The translations under genes were made by a program, and so were the position numbers. The notes under the pieces were generated by a model that worked only from the letters and a program-made list of their open reading frames with translations, was not told the origin of the DNA and ran no database searches. Of a stretch of DNA of 52,222 nt, positions 1,228 through 52,116 are shown piece after piece; within the stretch, counting starts at the first letter, position 1, and each line of letters opens with the position of its first letter. This stretch comes from Paludibacter sp. (GTDB lineage: Bacteria; Bacteroidota; Bacteroidia; Bacteroidales; Paludibacteraceae). The stretch is taken from positions 1 to 52,222 of the forward strand of contig WQYU01000003.1 in the NCBI GenBank assembly GCA_009781075.1. Direction: 5' to 3'.

Positions 1228-2727
1228 ATGAATAATATGAATTATATAATTGGTCAAAGCGACCTTACTTTTGAGGTAATAGAAAAAATTTTCAGTGAAA
1301 ATCTTACGCTCGAACTGTCGCAGGAGGCGGTTGCGCGTGTGCAAAAATGCCGTGATTATTTAGACAGGAAAATGCAAAATTCCAATGTGCCAATATACGG
1401 CATTACAACGGGCTTCGGCTCACTTTGCAATAAAAATATTTCCGCAAACGAACTGACAGAATTGCAGGAAAACCTTGTGAAATCGCATGCTTGCAGTATC
1501 GGCAACCCATTGCCGGAAGAAATTATTCGCCTGATGATGTTGCTGAAAATTCACGCTCTTTCGCTCGGACATAGCGGAGTACAAGTGGCTACAATAGAGC
1601 GAATTATTGATTTTTATAATAAAAACATAACGCCTGTTGTATATGAACAGGGGTCGCTTGGAGCAAGCGGCGACCTTGCTCCGCTGGCAAATCTTTTTTT
1701 GCCGCTCATCGGAGAAGGTGAAGTAATTTTTGAAAATAATAAATATAAAACCGCCGAAATTTTGCAGCGATTTAACCTTCAACCAATTCGTTTGCAAAGC
1801 AAAGAAGGGCTTGCCCTGCTTAACGGCACTCAATTTATGGCTGCAAACGGCGTTTATGCGCTGTTGCGAGCAAAAAAACTGACTAAAATTTCGGATACTG
1901 TTGCGGCGCTGTCGCTCGATGCGTTTGACGGAAGAATTGAACCATTTGATGCGAGTATCCATAAAGTTCGGCAGCATAAGGGACAGGCACAGACGGCAGA
2001 ATTTTTTCGTTACATACTTTCGGGTAGCGAACTGACTTCACGTAAAAAACCACACGTTCAAGACCCTTATTCTTTTCGCTGCATTCCGCAAGTTAGCGGC
2101 GCAACAAAAGATGCGATTAGATATGTTGAGAGCGTACTTCTGACGGAAATTAACTCTGTTACCGACAATCCGACAATTTTTCCTGACGAGGATAAAATTA
2201 TATCAGGAGGAAATTTTCATGGACAGCCGCTTGCGTTAGTATTTGATTATCTGGCTATTGCGCTGTCGGAACTTGGAAATATTTCCGAACGCCGTATTGC
2301 ACAACTGATTCTTGGTCTTCGCGGGTTACCTGAATTTCTTGTTGCCAATCCCGGTCTTAATTCGGGATTTATGATTCCACAATATGCTGCTGCTGCGATG
2401 GTTAGTCAAAATAAGATGTATTGTTTTGCCGCCTCAAGCGACTCAATAGTATCATCAAACGGACAGGAAGACCACGTTAGTATGGGTGCAAATTCGGCAA
2501 TAAAATTGCATAAAATTTTAGATAATTTAGTAAAAATCATTGCAATAGAACTGATGAATGCTGCTCAGGCGATGGAATTTCGCCGTCCAGCAAAAACTTC
2601 TCCTGCACTCGAAAATTTTTTAAAAGAATTTAGAAAATCGGTTGCAGCAGTTACAGAAGATGTTGTGATGTATAAAGAAATTGAAAAAGCGGTAGAATTT
2701 GTTAATTCGCAAGTATTTTTGCATTAA
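1228..2727 (+). CDS. hutH: Histidine ammonia-lyase HutH
   Basis: HutH deaminates L-histidine to trans-urocanate, the first step of histidine catabolism. The 499-residue length is normal for the family. The Ala-Ser-Gly triad that cyclises into the MIO electrophile is at residues 146-148 in GSLGASGDLAPLANL. YGITTGFG (about 57-64) and the SVTDNPTIF motif are also present. An alternative ATG at 1237 would shorten it by three residues. It lies 24 bp after thiL with no obvious promoter of its own. Its last 26 bp overlap, tail to tail, the 3' end of the convergent TPR gene. The next two pathway genes are in this window but far away (hutU near 31 kb, hutI near 45 kb). Confidence 0.96.
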   Translation: MNNMNYIIGQSDLTFEVIEKIFSENLTLELSQEAVARVQKCRDYLDRKMQNSNVPIYGITTGFGSLCNKNISANELTELQENLVKSHACSIGNPLPEEIIRLMMLLKIHALSLGHSGVQVATIERIIDFYNKNITPVVYEQGSLGASGDLAPLANLFLPLIGEGEVIFENNKYKTAEILQRFNLQPIRLQSKEGLALLNGTQFMAANGVYALLRAKKLTKISDTVAALSLDAFDGRIEPFDASIHKVRQHKGQAQTAEFFRYILSGSELTSRKKPHVQDPYSFRCIPQVSGATKDAIRYVESVLLTEINSVTDNPTIFPDEDKIISGGNFHGQPLALVFDYLAIALSELGNISERRIAQLILGLRGLPEFLVANPGLNSGFMIPQYAAAAMVSQNKMYCFAASSDSIVSSNGQEDHVSMGANSAIKLHKILDNLVKIIAIELMNAAQAMEFRRPAKTSPALENFLKEFRKSVAAVTEDVVMYKEIEKAVEFVNSQVFLH

Positions 2728-4435
2728 TTTTTTGGGCATCTTCGCCCTCGTCTATGGCTTTTTTCCACATCTCAACGGCTTTTTCTCTGTTATCGTTTTT
2801 TAACAGAATATCTCCGTAATGGTCGTAAATTACGCCATTCTGGTCGTTTATATTAAGATTTGAAATTGCTTTTTCAATATAAAGTTTTGCTAACGAATAA
2901 CTTTCACGTTCATATAAAATCCACGCATAAGTATCTAAAAATGTAGGATTATTTGGCTCAGCCTCAACTGTTTTTGAACTCATTGTCTCGGCTTTACGCA
3001 AATCGCGCTTTGCAAGTGCAAGATAATAAGCGTAATTATTCATAACATACAAATTTGTAGGATTGGCTAAAAGAGCATTGTCGTATGCGACAAAAGCGCT
3101 GTCGGGCAAATTTATTTTGTAAAATGCATCCGCCATAATAGAATAAAAATCACCGGAAAACGATTGTGTTTCATTATTTAACAGACTGATACCCTTTTTA
3201 GCAGTCGATATTGTTTGTTCAAAATTTTCTAATTGAAAATTTGCAATTGTTTTAAAATAATAAAATTGGGGCAAATCAGGCAACATTTCAATCGCCTCAT
3301 CAGATGTTGTAATCGCTTTTTCATAATTTTTTTGTGATAAATAAAATTGAATGAACTCGCCCCACGCTTTTTCGTTTTTGGGATTAATATTAATCATTGC
3401 CTCAAGTTCGGCAATTGCCTCTTCCTGTCGATTTTGAGTTTGTAAAAAAAGATAGTAATAAGCGTGCGGCTGCTCTTCAAGCGGATAACGCTCAATAAGA
3501 AGTTTCAGCAAATTTTCCGTTTGAGCAACTGCCGACTCGTCTGAATATGTTTGCTTGATATATTCTCCCAAAATTTGAAGTTTAGTTTCAATATCCAAAT
3601 TATCGTTTTTCAAGGCTTGAGTTACCATTTCCAATGCTTCTTCTGACTTATTTTCTTGCATATAATAATCCGCCAAACTTACATAAACCAGTGGACTTTG
3701 AGGGTCTGCCCTTCGCACCTGCTCAAAAACTTCCAGAGCGGCATCTTTTTGTCCGGACTGCATTAAAAGATTGGCTTTGAGCAATTTATAACGTACATCA
3801 TAAGGATATTTATCTATCAAACGTTCAATTTCGGCAAAAGCAGAGCGCGTGTCGTTGTTTTGCAAATGAAGTTTAAATTTTTCAATGGAAATATCTTCGC
3901 TCATCCCTGTAAGTTTTTCCAAATCGTCATACGCTTTCAAAGCACGTTTTATATCTTTATTATAAATATAAATTGCAGCCAGAATAGGATAAATCTGTTT
4001 GTTTTGCGGGTGAAATTTCTGAGTTTGTTCTGCAAGTTCCAGCGCATTAATTTCGTCTCCGATGTCCATATATAGAGAAATAAGTTGATAACTGTACCAC
4101 CAGTCATCAGGTGTAATTTCTACTGCCTTTTGCAAATGCCCAAGCGCCTTTGCTATGTTGTGATATTGCAAAAACATCATTCCAAGTTCCGAATGAATTT
4201 CGGCATTAACGCTGTCAATTTCATTGCAACGCAATAGTGTTTCCAAAGCAGAGTCGTAATCACCGTCAAATTTGAAACGAATTGCCTCATAAAAAAGCGA
4301 ATCGCGCAACAAAAGTGCTGACTCACTAAGAGTTACAGCGGACTTTGGCTTTATTGATACCTGCTTTGTAACCGAACACGAATTTAATAAAATTGCTATT
4401 ATTATAAAAAACGGGAAAAATATTTTGTTTTTCAT
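2702..4435 (-). CDS. TPR-repeat lipoprotein
   Basis: This 577-residue protein begins with a lipoprotein signal ending in LLNSC, so Cys20 is the likely lipidated residue. The rest is a run of tetratricopeptide-like helical hairpins (for example ALETLLRCNEIDSVNAEIHSELGMM, then ALGHLQKAVEITPDD), with at least ten recognisable units. Such proteins act as envelope scaffolds; the partner cannot be told from sequence. The gene stands alone and its stop lies inside the hutH 3' end. A -7 box sits immediately upstream of the ATG, suggesting a nearly leaderless mRNA. Confidence 0.85.
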   Translation of the reverse strand: MKNKIFFPFFIIIAILLNSCSVTKQVSIKPKSAVTLSESALLLRDSLFYEAIRFKFDGDYDSALETLLRCNEIDSVNAEIHSELGMMFLQYHNIAKALGHLQKAVEITPDDWWYSYQLISLYMDIGDEINALELAEQTQKFHPQNKQIYPILAAIYIYNKDIKRALKAYDDLEKLTGMSEDISIEKFKLHLQNNDTRSAFAEIERLIDKYPYDVRYKLLKANLLMQSGQKDAALEVFEQVRRADPQSPLVYVSLADYYMQENKSEEALEMVTQALKNDNLDIETKLQILGEYIKQTYSDESAVAQTENLLKLLIERYPLEEQPHAYYYLFLQTQNRQEEAIAELEAMININPKNEKAWGEFIQFYLSQKNYEKAITTSDEAIEMLPDLPQFYYFKTIANFQLENFEQTISTAKKGISLLNNETQSFSGDFYSIMADAFYKINLPDSAFVAYDNALLANPTNLYVMNNYAYYLALAKRDLRKAETMSSKTVEAEPNNPTFLDTYAWILYERESYSLAKLYIEKAISNLNINDQNGVIYDHYGDILLKNDNREKAVEMWKKAIDEGEDAQKINAKILAN

Positions 4436-48146: not shown

Positions 48147-51100
48147 ATGAATAACTTAATAGAATTATTTCCTGCTGAACATAGAGAGACAATTACTCGA
48201 TATAAAAACAATCTCTCTGATATTTTTGACAATTATGATGTAGCAATTTTTATGGCTCGCAAAGCAATATGTTTTTATAAAGCTCTTGTTTTAGAGAAAC
48301 ATTTACAAAAGCCAACTCATTGCAAAATTGTTTCAAGTCGTGTGCTTGATTATAACGTCTTTGATGATTTCAAAGGCAAAAAAATCATTGTTATTGATGA
48401 TTTTGTAGTACGGGGTGAGTCTTTGACAAGAACCATACAAAAGTTGTCCGACAACAACATAGAAGCCGATGTGTATATTTTGGCATGCTCTGAAGATGCT
48501 TTTAATTTAAGCAAACCTGATAGTCAAAACATAATTGATTCATATTCAATATTGTCGAATAATGACACATTTCTCTTATCACAATATATAACAACTTTTA
48601 TTGAAGCTGCAATGTGTCCATATAATATAGATCAACCTATATACAGCTTAGAGTACTCCACACTTGAGGAGTTTGATATGCTTGTAAAAAGTCTTAAACT
48701 GGTCGATATAACAAGTAATGTTCAAGGCGCACATGGAATTGAAAGTTATGTGTTCAATGTTCCGAAAGAGATATTACCGTGCGAAGATATTAAGTCAAAA
48801 ATAGAATTGTGCAAAATCAGATTTTTGTGTAAAAAAACAGATAATAAAGTTTCTATTGTAATTATTCCATTTGTGTTATTAAAGACATTAACATACGAGG
48901 AATTAGATACTTTTTTTGCTGCACATATACAAACGAATAAGATTATTCAGTTTATTAATAATAAGAATGAGTGTATTGTTAGTGAAAACAAACTAAAAGT
49001 TTTACATTTCGTTCTTGCAATGAAGTTAATGCGGTTATTTTCTAATGTTGCTAAAATAAGCGGACTGACTCGACTTCGTGGAAATGATGACTTCGTTTTT
49101 GCCGCAAATATAGAGAAGTTTATTTCTGAGTCAGATGGTAAATCCACACTAAATTTTATTGATATAAAAGAGTCTTCATTTGACTCATTTTTGCAAAATG
49201 AGTATATTAGTATAGCATATGATTTTCTTTATTCAGATAATATAGATAAAACAAAGTATAATGACGCATTAGGTAGTAAAATAAAGGTACCACTGCTGAT
49301 TTTATCGGAATTAAAAGATTTTATTGCATCAAAAATCACAATGAATAATATTGATACTTTATTGTTTTCAAATATTATTGATATCTTTATTGACAAAGGA
49401 TTAATTATTCCTTCTATTGTGCATTTTGAAAAAACAATCGTTCGGGGATATAAATGTGGTGAAGTTTATCATTTAGGAGAGGAGCATTTTCGTCTTTTTG
49501 CTTTTGTCCTTAGCCAGTACTCCAGTTTTATTAATCGTGATTTGTATAAAACTGAACTGGAAAAGTTATGCGTACTGTTTTTTAGAGATGCTGCACAACA
49601 GCATTTTATTCCCTATGGGGAAGCGAGTGGGGGGCAAGATGAGTATAGTATTTGTTTTTCCAAATTTGGTCCACGTGTTTCAACAAGTAAACCAATTTAT
49701 AGTGCATCTGAAGATTCAGTATTAGCTTCTAAATTGTTTGGTGACAGATATATAAAAAAATCATCAGGTAGAAATACTAGAATTTTAGGTGACAGGTCTG
49801 AACCCAGCTATCAAATTTGGAATGAAGGTTTTTTAAAACCACTTAATCCTGCTTGGCATAGAAGATCTACAGTATTTGCAAGCAAATATTCTGAATTACA
49901 GAAAGCTTACGAAAAGGTACGTAAGTACAGCGGATATCATCTGAACTCATACATTGAATTGCTTACAATGTTATCAATTGGTCTCAATCAAAGAGATCAA
50001 TTACTGTCATTACTGGCAGAAATTTATCTGTTCAAGACGGTACGAGCCAAAGATGTCAATATAAGAAACATTTTGCGGGATTGCAATAGAATACTTGATG
50101 GTATTACAAGCGGAATGTGGAAATACATGTGCTATAGTTCAAAGACACATCCCTTGGAAAAATTGCTTAATGAACTTTTAAACAATGAAACTACACGTAT
50201 GATAGGTGTAAGTGTTGGCGAAATCATTGATGCGAATCCTAATGCTGATGCAAACCCAAATATTGAAAAATTGATAAATGCTAGTGGAAATTTAATATTT
50301 GACATAGCCTATGTTGTTCATTTTCTTTGCGAAAAGTATAGCATTAAATGTGCGATTGATTACAGAAATTTTTATAAGCGTGAATTTTACGAACTGAGTA
50401 TGCGACCAAAAAGGAAGGATATTGAAGAACGACTTAGTGCAAGCACACAAGACGATGACCTGATTTTGTTGTACGATTTGCATCAACGTGCTACGCAATT
50501 ACTTGAAGATTACGAAAAAAATGTTCAAAATGGTGCACCAAAAAATGAGAATAACATAACAATTGGGATAGTTACTGCATTGCCAATAGAGTTTGCTGCA
50601 ATGGAAACCATGTTGCACAATCCACTACTTCCCAAAGATATACCTTCTGATGACCCAAATGATTACAAAATTGGAACAATAGAGACTAAAACAGGAAAAA
50701 AGGTAAAAGTAATACTCGCTTGCTTGAAAGAAATGGGAACAAACAATGCATCAAGTGTTACAACACATATGCTGCGCACATTTACTGATATAGGTGAAGT
50801 AATTCTTGTTGGAATTGCAGGTGGCATTCCTTGTCCCGCTAATTCAGAAAATCATGTTAGATTAGGAGATATTGTTTGCTCTAATAGTATCCTTCAATAT
50901 GATAATATTAAGGAAGAAGATAATGAAATAAAAATTAGAAGTAACACAGATAAACCATCAGCAGCAATGATAGGTAAACACAACATGTTAGTAGCTGATG
51001 CTTGTTTGGGCAAATATACATGGGAGGATTATATCAGTAAAACCATTTCTTTACATAACACTTTTAAAAGACCAAGTGAACAAACTGATATTTTGAAAAT

Positions 51101-51419
51101 TAACGAAATAGATATAATTCATCCTACAGATGATAGAAGACGAAATGAAGTTCCAAGAGTTTTCTTGGGCAAAATAGGCTCTGCAAATATCTTATTAAAA
51201 AAGGAATCAAAAAGAGACTATTTAAGAGATAATTACGGATGTAGAGCAATAGAAATGGAGAGTGCAGGTGTTGCAGATGGCACTTGGAGTTGTCATAAAT
51301 CTTATTTTGTTATTAGAGGGATTGTTGACTATTGTAATCCATCAAAAGGAGATATATGGCACCCCTATGCTGCATTATGTGCTGCTGCGTATGCAAAATC
51401 TTTGATAGAGTTATTTTAA
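48147..51419 (+). CDS. Phosphoribosyltransferase-nucleosidase fusion protein
   Basis: This is a large, cytoplasmic-looking 1090-residue protein. The N-terminus (about 1-170) has a PRTase core: hydrophobic strand then VIDDFVVRGES (82-92), a PRPP loop close to the DDSIVRGTT type of amidophosphoribosyltransferases. Residues about 170-800 are a long, mostly helical unassigned region with no P-loop. The C-terminus (804-1090) is a PNP/UDP or MTA/SAH-nucleosidase-type domain: IGIVTALPIEFAAM, GIAGGIP (889-895), IEMESAG (1035-1041) and IRGIVDY with Asp1061. Related nucleosidase domains act as antiviral effectors that cleave ATP or other nucleotides in bacteria. No STAND ATPase or separate sensor is seen, so the middle region may be the sensor. 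Low-complexity-free, AT-rich and without a visible promoter, it looks like accessory DNA. Confidence 0.8.
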   Translation: MNNLIELFPAEHRETITRYKNNLSDIFDNYDVAIFMARKAICFYKALVLEKHLQKPTHCKIVSSRVLDYNVFDDFKGKKIIVIDDFVVRGESLTRTIQKLSDNNIEADVYILACSEDAFNLSKPDSQNIIDSYSILSNNDTFLLSQYITTFIEAAMCPYNIDQPIYSLEYSTLEEFDMLVKSLKLVDITSNVQGAHGIESYVFNVPKEILPCEDIKSKIELCKIRFLCKKTDNKVSIVIIPFVLLKTLTYEELDTFFAAHIQTNKIIQFINNKNECIVSENKLKVLHFVLAMKLMRLFSNVAKISGLTRLRGNDDFVFAANIEKFISESDGKSTLNFIDIKESSFDSFLQNEYISIAYDFLYSDNIDKTKYNDALGSKIKVPLLILSELKDFIASKITMNNIDTLLFSNIIDIFIDKGLIIPSIVHFEKTIVRGYKCGEVYHLGEEHFRLFAFVLSQYSSFINRDLYKTELEKLCVLFFRDAAQQHFIPYGEASGGQDEYSICFSKFGPRVSTSKPIYSASEDSVLASKLFGDRYIKKSSGRNTRILGDRSEPSYQIWNEGFLKPLNPAWHRRSTVFASKYSELQKAYEKVRKYSGYHLNSYIELLTMLSIGLNQRDQLLSLLAEIYLFKTVRAKDVNIRNILRDCNRILDGITSGMWKYMCYSSKTHPLEKLLNELLNNETTRMIGVSVGEIIDANPNADANPNIEKLINASGNLIFDIAYVVHFLCEKYSIKCAIDYRNFYKREFYELSMRPKRKDIEERLSASTQDDDLILLYDLHQRATQLLEDYEKNVQNGAPKNENNITIGIVTALPIEFAAMETMLHNPLLPKDIPSDDPNDYKIGTIETKTGKKVKVILACLKEMGTNNASSVTTHMLRTFTDIGEVILVGIAGGIPCPANSENHVRLGDIVCSNSILQYDNIKEEDNEIKIRSNTDKPSAAMIGKHNMLVADACLGKYTWEDYISKTISLHNTFKRPSEQTDILKINEIDIIHPTDDRRRNEVPRVFLGKIGSANILLKKESKRDYLRDNYGCRAIEMESAGVADGTWSCHKSYFVIRGIVDYCNPSKGDIWHPYAALCAAAYAKSLIELF

Positions 51420-51540: not shown

Positions 51541-52116
51541 ATGAAACAAGTATTTTTTTCAATTTTAGCAATGCTTTTGCTGATGACAAGTTGCAAAGAC
51601 GATACGACAGCGATTATACTATTACAACAGCAAAAGACCATATTGTGATTTCTGTTGCCGGCAGTTTCTTGGGTACATTCGGCATTGACTGGGGAGATGG
51701 TTCGCCAATTAAAAAACACAGGATTCGGTCGCCTTACTGGGCTTGGTCTGAAAATTATAAACCCAAAATGTCCATTAGAACAATTGTTAATAAATATTTA
51801 ATTTTCTAATGGATGTCATTAGAAAATGTTATCTATAATGAATTGATAATCAGCGCATAATTTTGCATTAATTGTTCAAAAAACACGAGAAATAAATGTT
51901 AATAATGCCTAATTTAACATTTGAGGTTCTAATGGACATTTTGGGATAAATACACTCACATCTATTACAATGTTTCTTTACATACAGTAAAAATAATTGG
52001 CATAAAAGTGACGCATTTAGATTGCGGAAATAATCAATTAACAAGTTTAGATGTGAGCAAAAATACTAAATTGAGAGAATTGCATTGTGACGTTAACCAA
52101 TTATATAATTTCTAAT
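51541..52116 (+). pseudogene. Leucine-rich-repeat surface lipoprotein, broken by frameshift and insertion
   Basis: ATG at 51541 gives a lipoprotein signal (MKQVFFSILAMLLLMTSCKDD). The frame then must shift (between about 51590 and 51620) to continue as DYTITTAKDHIVISVAGSF and IDWGDGSPI, the usual N-terminal module of Bacteroidales LRR/BspA-like proteins. At 51761 a 184-bp inverted-repeat element interrupts it. Coding resumes at 51951 (YTHIYYNVSLHTVKI, HLDCGNNQLTSLDVSKNTKL) and stops at 52116 after barely two repeats. With one insertion and at least one frameshift it is not functional as it stands. The last 106 bases of the window hold nothing I can name. Confidence 0.8.
51762..51945. mobile_element. 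MITE-like element with 20-bp terminal inverted repeats
   Basis: The left end CCCAAAATGTCCATTAGAAC (51762-51781) is the exact reverse complement of 51926-51945. The element is flanked by ATAAA on both sides (51757-51761 and 51946-51950), a 5-bp target duplication. It has no coding capacity. An internal 11-bp hairpin (51801-51811 with 51817-51827) repeats part of the end sequence (TTCTAATGGA). Removing the element plus one ATAAA joins ENYK to YTHIYYN in frame. Confidence 0.85.

Follow-up and report, generated by a model that had tools for sequence, protein, structure and literature searches.

Tn3-derived miniature elements (TIMEs) are small, with inverted ends and 5-bp AT-rich duplications, and Tn3 ends are about 38 bp long and start with GGGG. 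The piggyBac elements have ends that start with CCC and a T/A-rich target. TIMEs are treated in PMC4133298, piggyBac transposases have been described as distantly related to IS1380 (PMC10140906), and 5-bp duplications are made by IS1247 and ISEcp1, both members of the IS1380 family (PMC3281130, PMC2887853). We analysed a 52,222-nucleotide stretch of Paludibacter sp. (contig WQYU01000003.1, the window), which carries a short inverted-repeat element. On sequence grounds, this element is very probably a MITE mobilised in trans by an IS1380-family DDE transposase, because it shares its ends with such insertion sequences, is spread in many copies, occupies a strict N-T-W-A-N site, is flanked by target duplications and has a body resembling an insertion sequence (IS) leader.

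The element and its host gene

The features of the locus are listed below (window coordinates, strand where there is one, description and evidence).

51541..51603, + strand: apparent lipoprotein signal peptide at the start of the host gene (MKQVFFSILAMLLLMTSCKDD); translation inspected by eye
51606..51761, + strand: left part of the interrupted frame (...WGDGS...WAWSENYK); translation, homologue search
51757..51761: putative target-site duplication, copy 1, ATAAA, fits N-T-W-A-N; sequence, junction survey
51762..51945, + strand: putative 184-bp MITE, IS-leader-derived end on the left; end repeats, genome copies, consensus, leader alignment
51762..51781, + strand: left terminal inverted repeat, CCCAAAATGTCCATTAGAAC; sequence, end-pattern search
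51762..51908, + strand: segment alignable with an IS1380-family 5' leader, to about the start codon; leader alignment
51806..51822: internal palindrome, repeating the terminal-repeat core; copy alignment, leader comparison
51926..51945, - strand: right terminal inverted repeat, perfect complement of the left; sequence, end-pattern search
51946..51950: putative target-site duplication, copy 2, ATAAA; sequence, junction survey
51951..52115, + strand: right part, leucine-rich repeats (LRR_4), stop after about two repeats; translation, domain search

The initial annotation had described perfect 20-bp terminal repeats between ATAAA flanks, and both were borne out by the sequence at 51757-51950. It had also given the element a 184-bp non-coding body. 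The non-coding character held (stops are present in all three forward frames, and there is no open frame and no transposase gene), but 184 bp is the length of the whole element with both ends counted, and the body between the ends measures 144 bp. As a single strand, the element folded far better than shuffled sequences (z = -7.8). The internal palindrome has the family consensus CTAATGGACACCATTAG, from which the window copy differs by three bases; related full-length IS carry this palindrome too, in their 5' leaders.

Together with one ATAAA the element spans 189 bp, or 63 codons, and the open frames on either side (...WAWSENYK and YTHIYYN...) are in the same phase. The proposal that its precise removal restores an LRR reading frame was thus correct for the local junction but not for a whole normal LRR gene, because the apparent signal peptide (MKQVFFSILAMLLLMTSC...) lies in another frame than the ...SENYK part and only about two repeat units precede the stop; in relatives, LRR genes extend over hundreds of residues. 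The left part had no homologue in seven genomes. The right part matched only generic LRR repeats, with no orthologue and no empty site, so that neither an uninterrupted allele nor an orthologous LRR gene holding the same 184-bp segment was found. In two relatives, a short stretch of similar sequence, '...YY...TI-VYG-', came before generic LRR units. The host gene was probably already decaying before the insertion, or else there are assembly errors in this region.

At 48147-51419 the window encodes a protein of 1090 aa that ends in a nucleoside-phosphorylase (PNP_UDP_1) domain; its N-terminal part gave weak matches to phosphoribosyltransferases. It matched the PADLOC effector model PDLC00759 (PN-superfamily) at 1.9e-18 and, because of this match, is possibly a phage-defence protein.

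Genomic copies and target site

A search of the organism's own genome (2.48 Mb in 203 contigs) with the element returned matches of 91-98% identity, 17 of them exceeding 85 bp in length and two below it. Contig ends truncate ten of these pieces to half-elements (five left and five right halves), which puts the count of distinct insertions at 14-19. The 20-bp end pattern, which the initial annotation had proposed to look for elsewhere in the genome, was matched at 25 places, compared with one for the reversed control; copies of the ends are therefore not confined to this locus. Taken together, the identity of the copies, the excess of end matches and the fold score put the observation far beyond chance. 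Aligning the copies gave a 184-bp consensus from which they differ by 0-4.6%. The idea of a recent insertion was moderately supported by this spread, but the window copy differs at 7/184 positions (3.8%) and is among the more diverged.

Elements with the same or near-same ends were present in five genomes of the same family (G021, G079, G183, G235, G241), and no copy turned up in either of the other two genomes of the genus. A plasmid search gave no match of the element, and no solved structure was matched by sequence. A single exact 17-bp match in viral contigs (L115) stood alone in unrelated sequence and was taken as chance. One copy (L016 816-999; G000:C1:21615-21798) is centred in a perfect 17-bp inverted repeat, TTGCAATGTGAAATAAT / ATTATTTCACATTGCAA, which looks like a hairpin split in two by the insertion. 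Two recombinase-like coding pieces in different frames meet at L044 1049-1065 (G000:C60:12748), and at their junction lies a single 17-bp terminal repeat, which may be the deletion scar of an element.

To describe the target, 61 distinct element/host junctions of MITEs and IS from several genomes were compared. The 5 bp before CCC followed the pattern N-T-W-A-N, with T at -4 in 61/61 and A at -2 in 60/61. Because the site is so constrained, one ATAAA pair is weaker evidence of duplication than it looks, but the whole set is strong. With relatives pooled, 6 of the 13 two-sided elements had exact 5-bp duplications (ATAAA, ATTAT, ATTAA, TTAAT, ATTAT, ATAAA), where the site preference gives a chance of 0.116 per pair (P = 0.002). 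Within the own genome, the duplication was exact in 2/5 two-sided elements, and two further ones matched at 4/5 bases. Duplications with one mismatch were seen in four elements (C119, C1, G079 and G235), the last being the only two-sided full-length IS (TTTAG/TTTAT, 4/5 bases). Three others (C50, L122, L139) had no matching duplication. Recombination, mutation or misassembly may account for the missing or mismatched cases.

These data bear on whether the repeat is mobile at all. A structured non-mobile repeat, REP/BIME-like or a regulatory hairpin, kept for its function and transposed only in the distant past, would fit the strong hairpin, the position of most copies outside open frames and the retention of promoter-like leader sequence. 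However, near-identical full-length copies, 5-bp duplications, a strict target site and ends shared with IS show that the copies were inserted by transposition, and the search of both remaining genomes of the genus, which gave no copy, also speaks against such a repeat; we consider this explanation very unlikely. More improbable still is an assembly artefact, in which a repeat was misjoined into the LRR region of a metagenome-like contig. Many copies do lie at contig ends, some with non-matching flanks, and the window copy is itself only ~280 bp from one, but ATAAA on both flanks together with in-phase reading frames would be rare in a random join.

The probable parent insertion sequence and a likely origin of the miniature elements

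The full-length IS with the same ends whose existence had been put forward as a check was found in a Bacteroidales MAG (Gx481_bin90, L116). It is 1476 bp long (2024-3499), and both of its ends are exactly CCCAAAATGTCCATTAG, identical to the MITE ends over 17/17 bp. Its transposase, which has one frame break near the start, matched NCBIfam NF033539 (236.9 bits) and PF13701 (2e-41); the NF033539 scores of transposases between such ends were 236.9 and 202.3 bits, with a cut-off of 180. Ends that had matched no namable family can now be assigned to IS1380 by the transposases lying between them. With this assignment, the multiple copies and the ends shared with full-length relatives, the initial reading as a small non-autonomous transposon with a target duplication was supported.

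The named genomes were scanned with the conserved C-terminal part of the transposase, the own-genome copy included. G235 contains two such ends 1314 bp apart, with a decayed transposase giving PF13701 matches between them, and the C-terminal part of the own-genome transposase was 66-70% identical to these pieces. A search of the own genome with PF01609 gave six places, and a PF13701 search was used instead. Contig C40 holds an IS 5' end, consisting of the exact 17-bp end, the leader and the start MQTTEIKFID, and is then truncated. C16 and C32 hold transposase 3' ends with CCCAAAAAGTCCATYAG directly behind the gene, the C32 copy running off the contig end. The own genome thus contained only truncated or contig-end pieces and no intact full-length IS, so that an active transposase there is inferred; given these remnants, a complete IS may be present in the organism yet missing from the assembly. 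PF13701 fragments at C5, C13, C34 and C40:6086 had no such ends nearby and were set aside as other IS1380-type elements. A shortened IS1380 element with closely similar ends was also seen in a Chitinispirillales MAG, of another phylum (L122 3007-3496), which suggests horizontal spread.

An origin from Tn3, as a TIME, would match the common size, the inverted ends and the 5-bp AT-rich duplication but is scarcely credible, given that the ends are 20 bp starting CCCAAAA (CCCAAAATGTCCATTAGAAC) rather than ~38 bp starting GGGG, and that elements sharing them encode IS1380 transposases.

Under the IS1380 reading, the body of the MITE can be compared with IS leaders. The alignment runs from the end through the palindrome CTAATGGACACCATTAG and the motif TTGCATTAATTG to about the start codon, after which the right end is joined. 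With the terminal repeats excluded, the MITE scored 95 against the C40 leader and 88 against that of L116; the maxima over 300 shuffles were 68 and 54. The rightmost ~35 bp beyond the terminal repeat had no clear source.

A shorter element of G079 (L091 895-968, G079:C19) is 74 bp long and consists of the first ~67 bp of the G079 IS leader followed by the right end. The join falls at the core CTAATGGACA, which is common to the palindrome and the end. Judged from this join, the 74-bp element likely records the birth of miniature elements. The 74-bp elements occur between near-perfect duplications, suggesting that movement does not require the complete palindrome. The palindrome itself is made of two inverted terminal-repeat cores, and it has been conserved both in the IS leaders and in the majority of the MITEs of this IS1380 branch. 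Prompted by the 74-bp elements, we tentatively raise a dual role, which we regard as possible but doubtful: the palindrome could be a transposase-binding operator that regulates the IS gene and, at the same time, the deletion point that gives birth to miniature elements.

Proposed mode of movement and comparison with known systems

In the scheme that we propose, the IS1380 transposase would bind both ends and excise the element, which would then insert, with a 5-bp stagger, at WTWAW. Loss of the transposase gene through an internal deletion would have given rise to the MITE; a parallel may be seen in the 74-bp element of the relative, where a deletion would have fused the core of the internal palindrome with the right end. 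As for the window copy, it would have inserted into an LRR lipoprotein gene that looks damaged otherwise too. The repeat is real, is an ordinary kind of mobile DNA and is now assignable to a family. For what was an unnamed repeat, the finding supplies the transposase family, a rule for the target site and a plausible way of arising; general knowledge of transposition is unchanged by it. Repeats of this kind break assemblies of these Bacteroidales genomes.

The element resembles bacterial MITEs in being shorter than 200 bp, with inverted ends, a target duplication, multiple copies, no gene and the ends of an autonomous IS. It differs from bacterial MITEs generally in its parent, here IS1380. 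The part of the literature that was searched gave no paper describing a MITE derived from IS1380, though one may exist. Like the IS1380 family (IS1247, ISEcp1), the element has a 5-bp target duplication, within the 4-5 bp expected for that family, at an AT-rich target, and full-length elements with the same ends encode the IS1380 equivalog transposase; unlike these, the 184-bp element lacks a transposase gene. Identity of the related transposase reaches at most 41% with annotated plasmid-borne members and is 27% with ISEcp1. With the piggyBac elements of eukaryotes it shares CCC-starting ends and a T/A-rich target, but piggyBac uses a fixed TTAA site whereas the site here is a degenerate 5-bp WTWAW.
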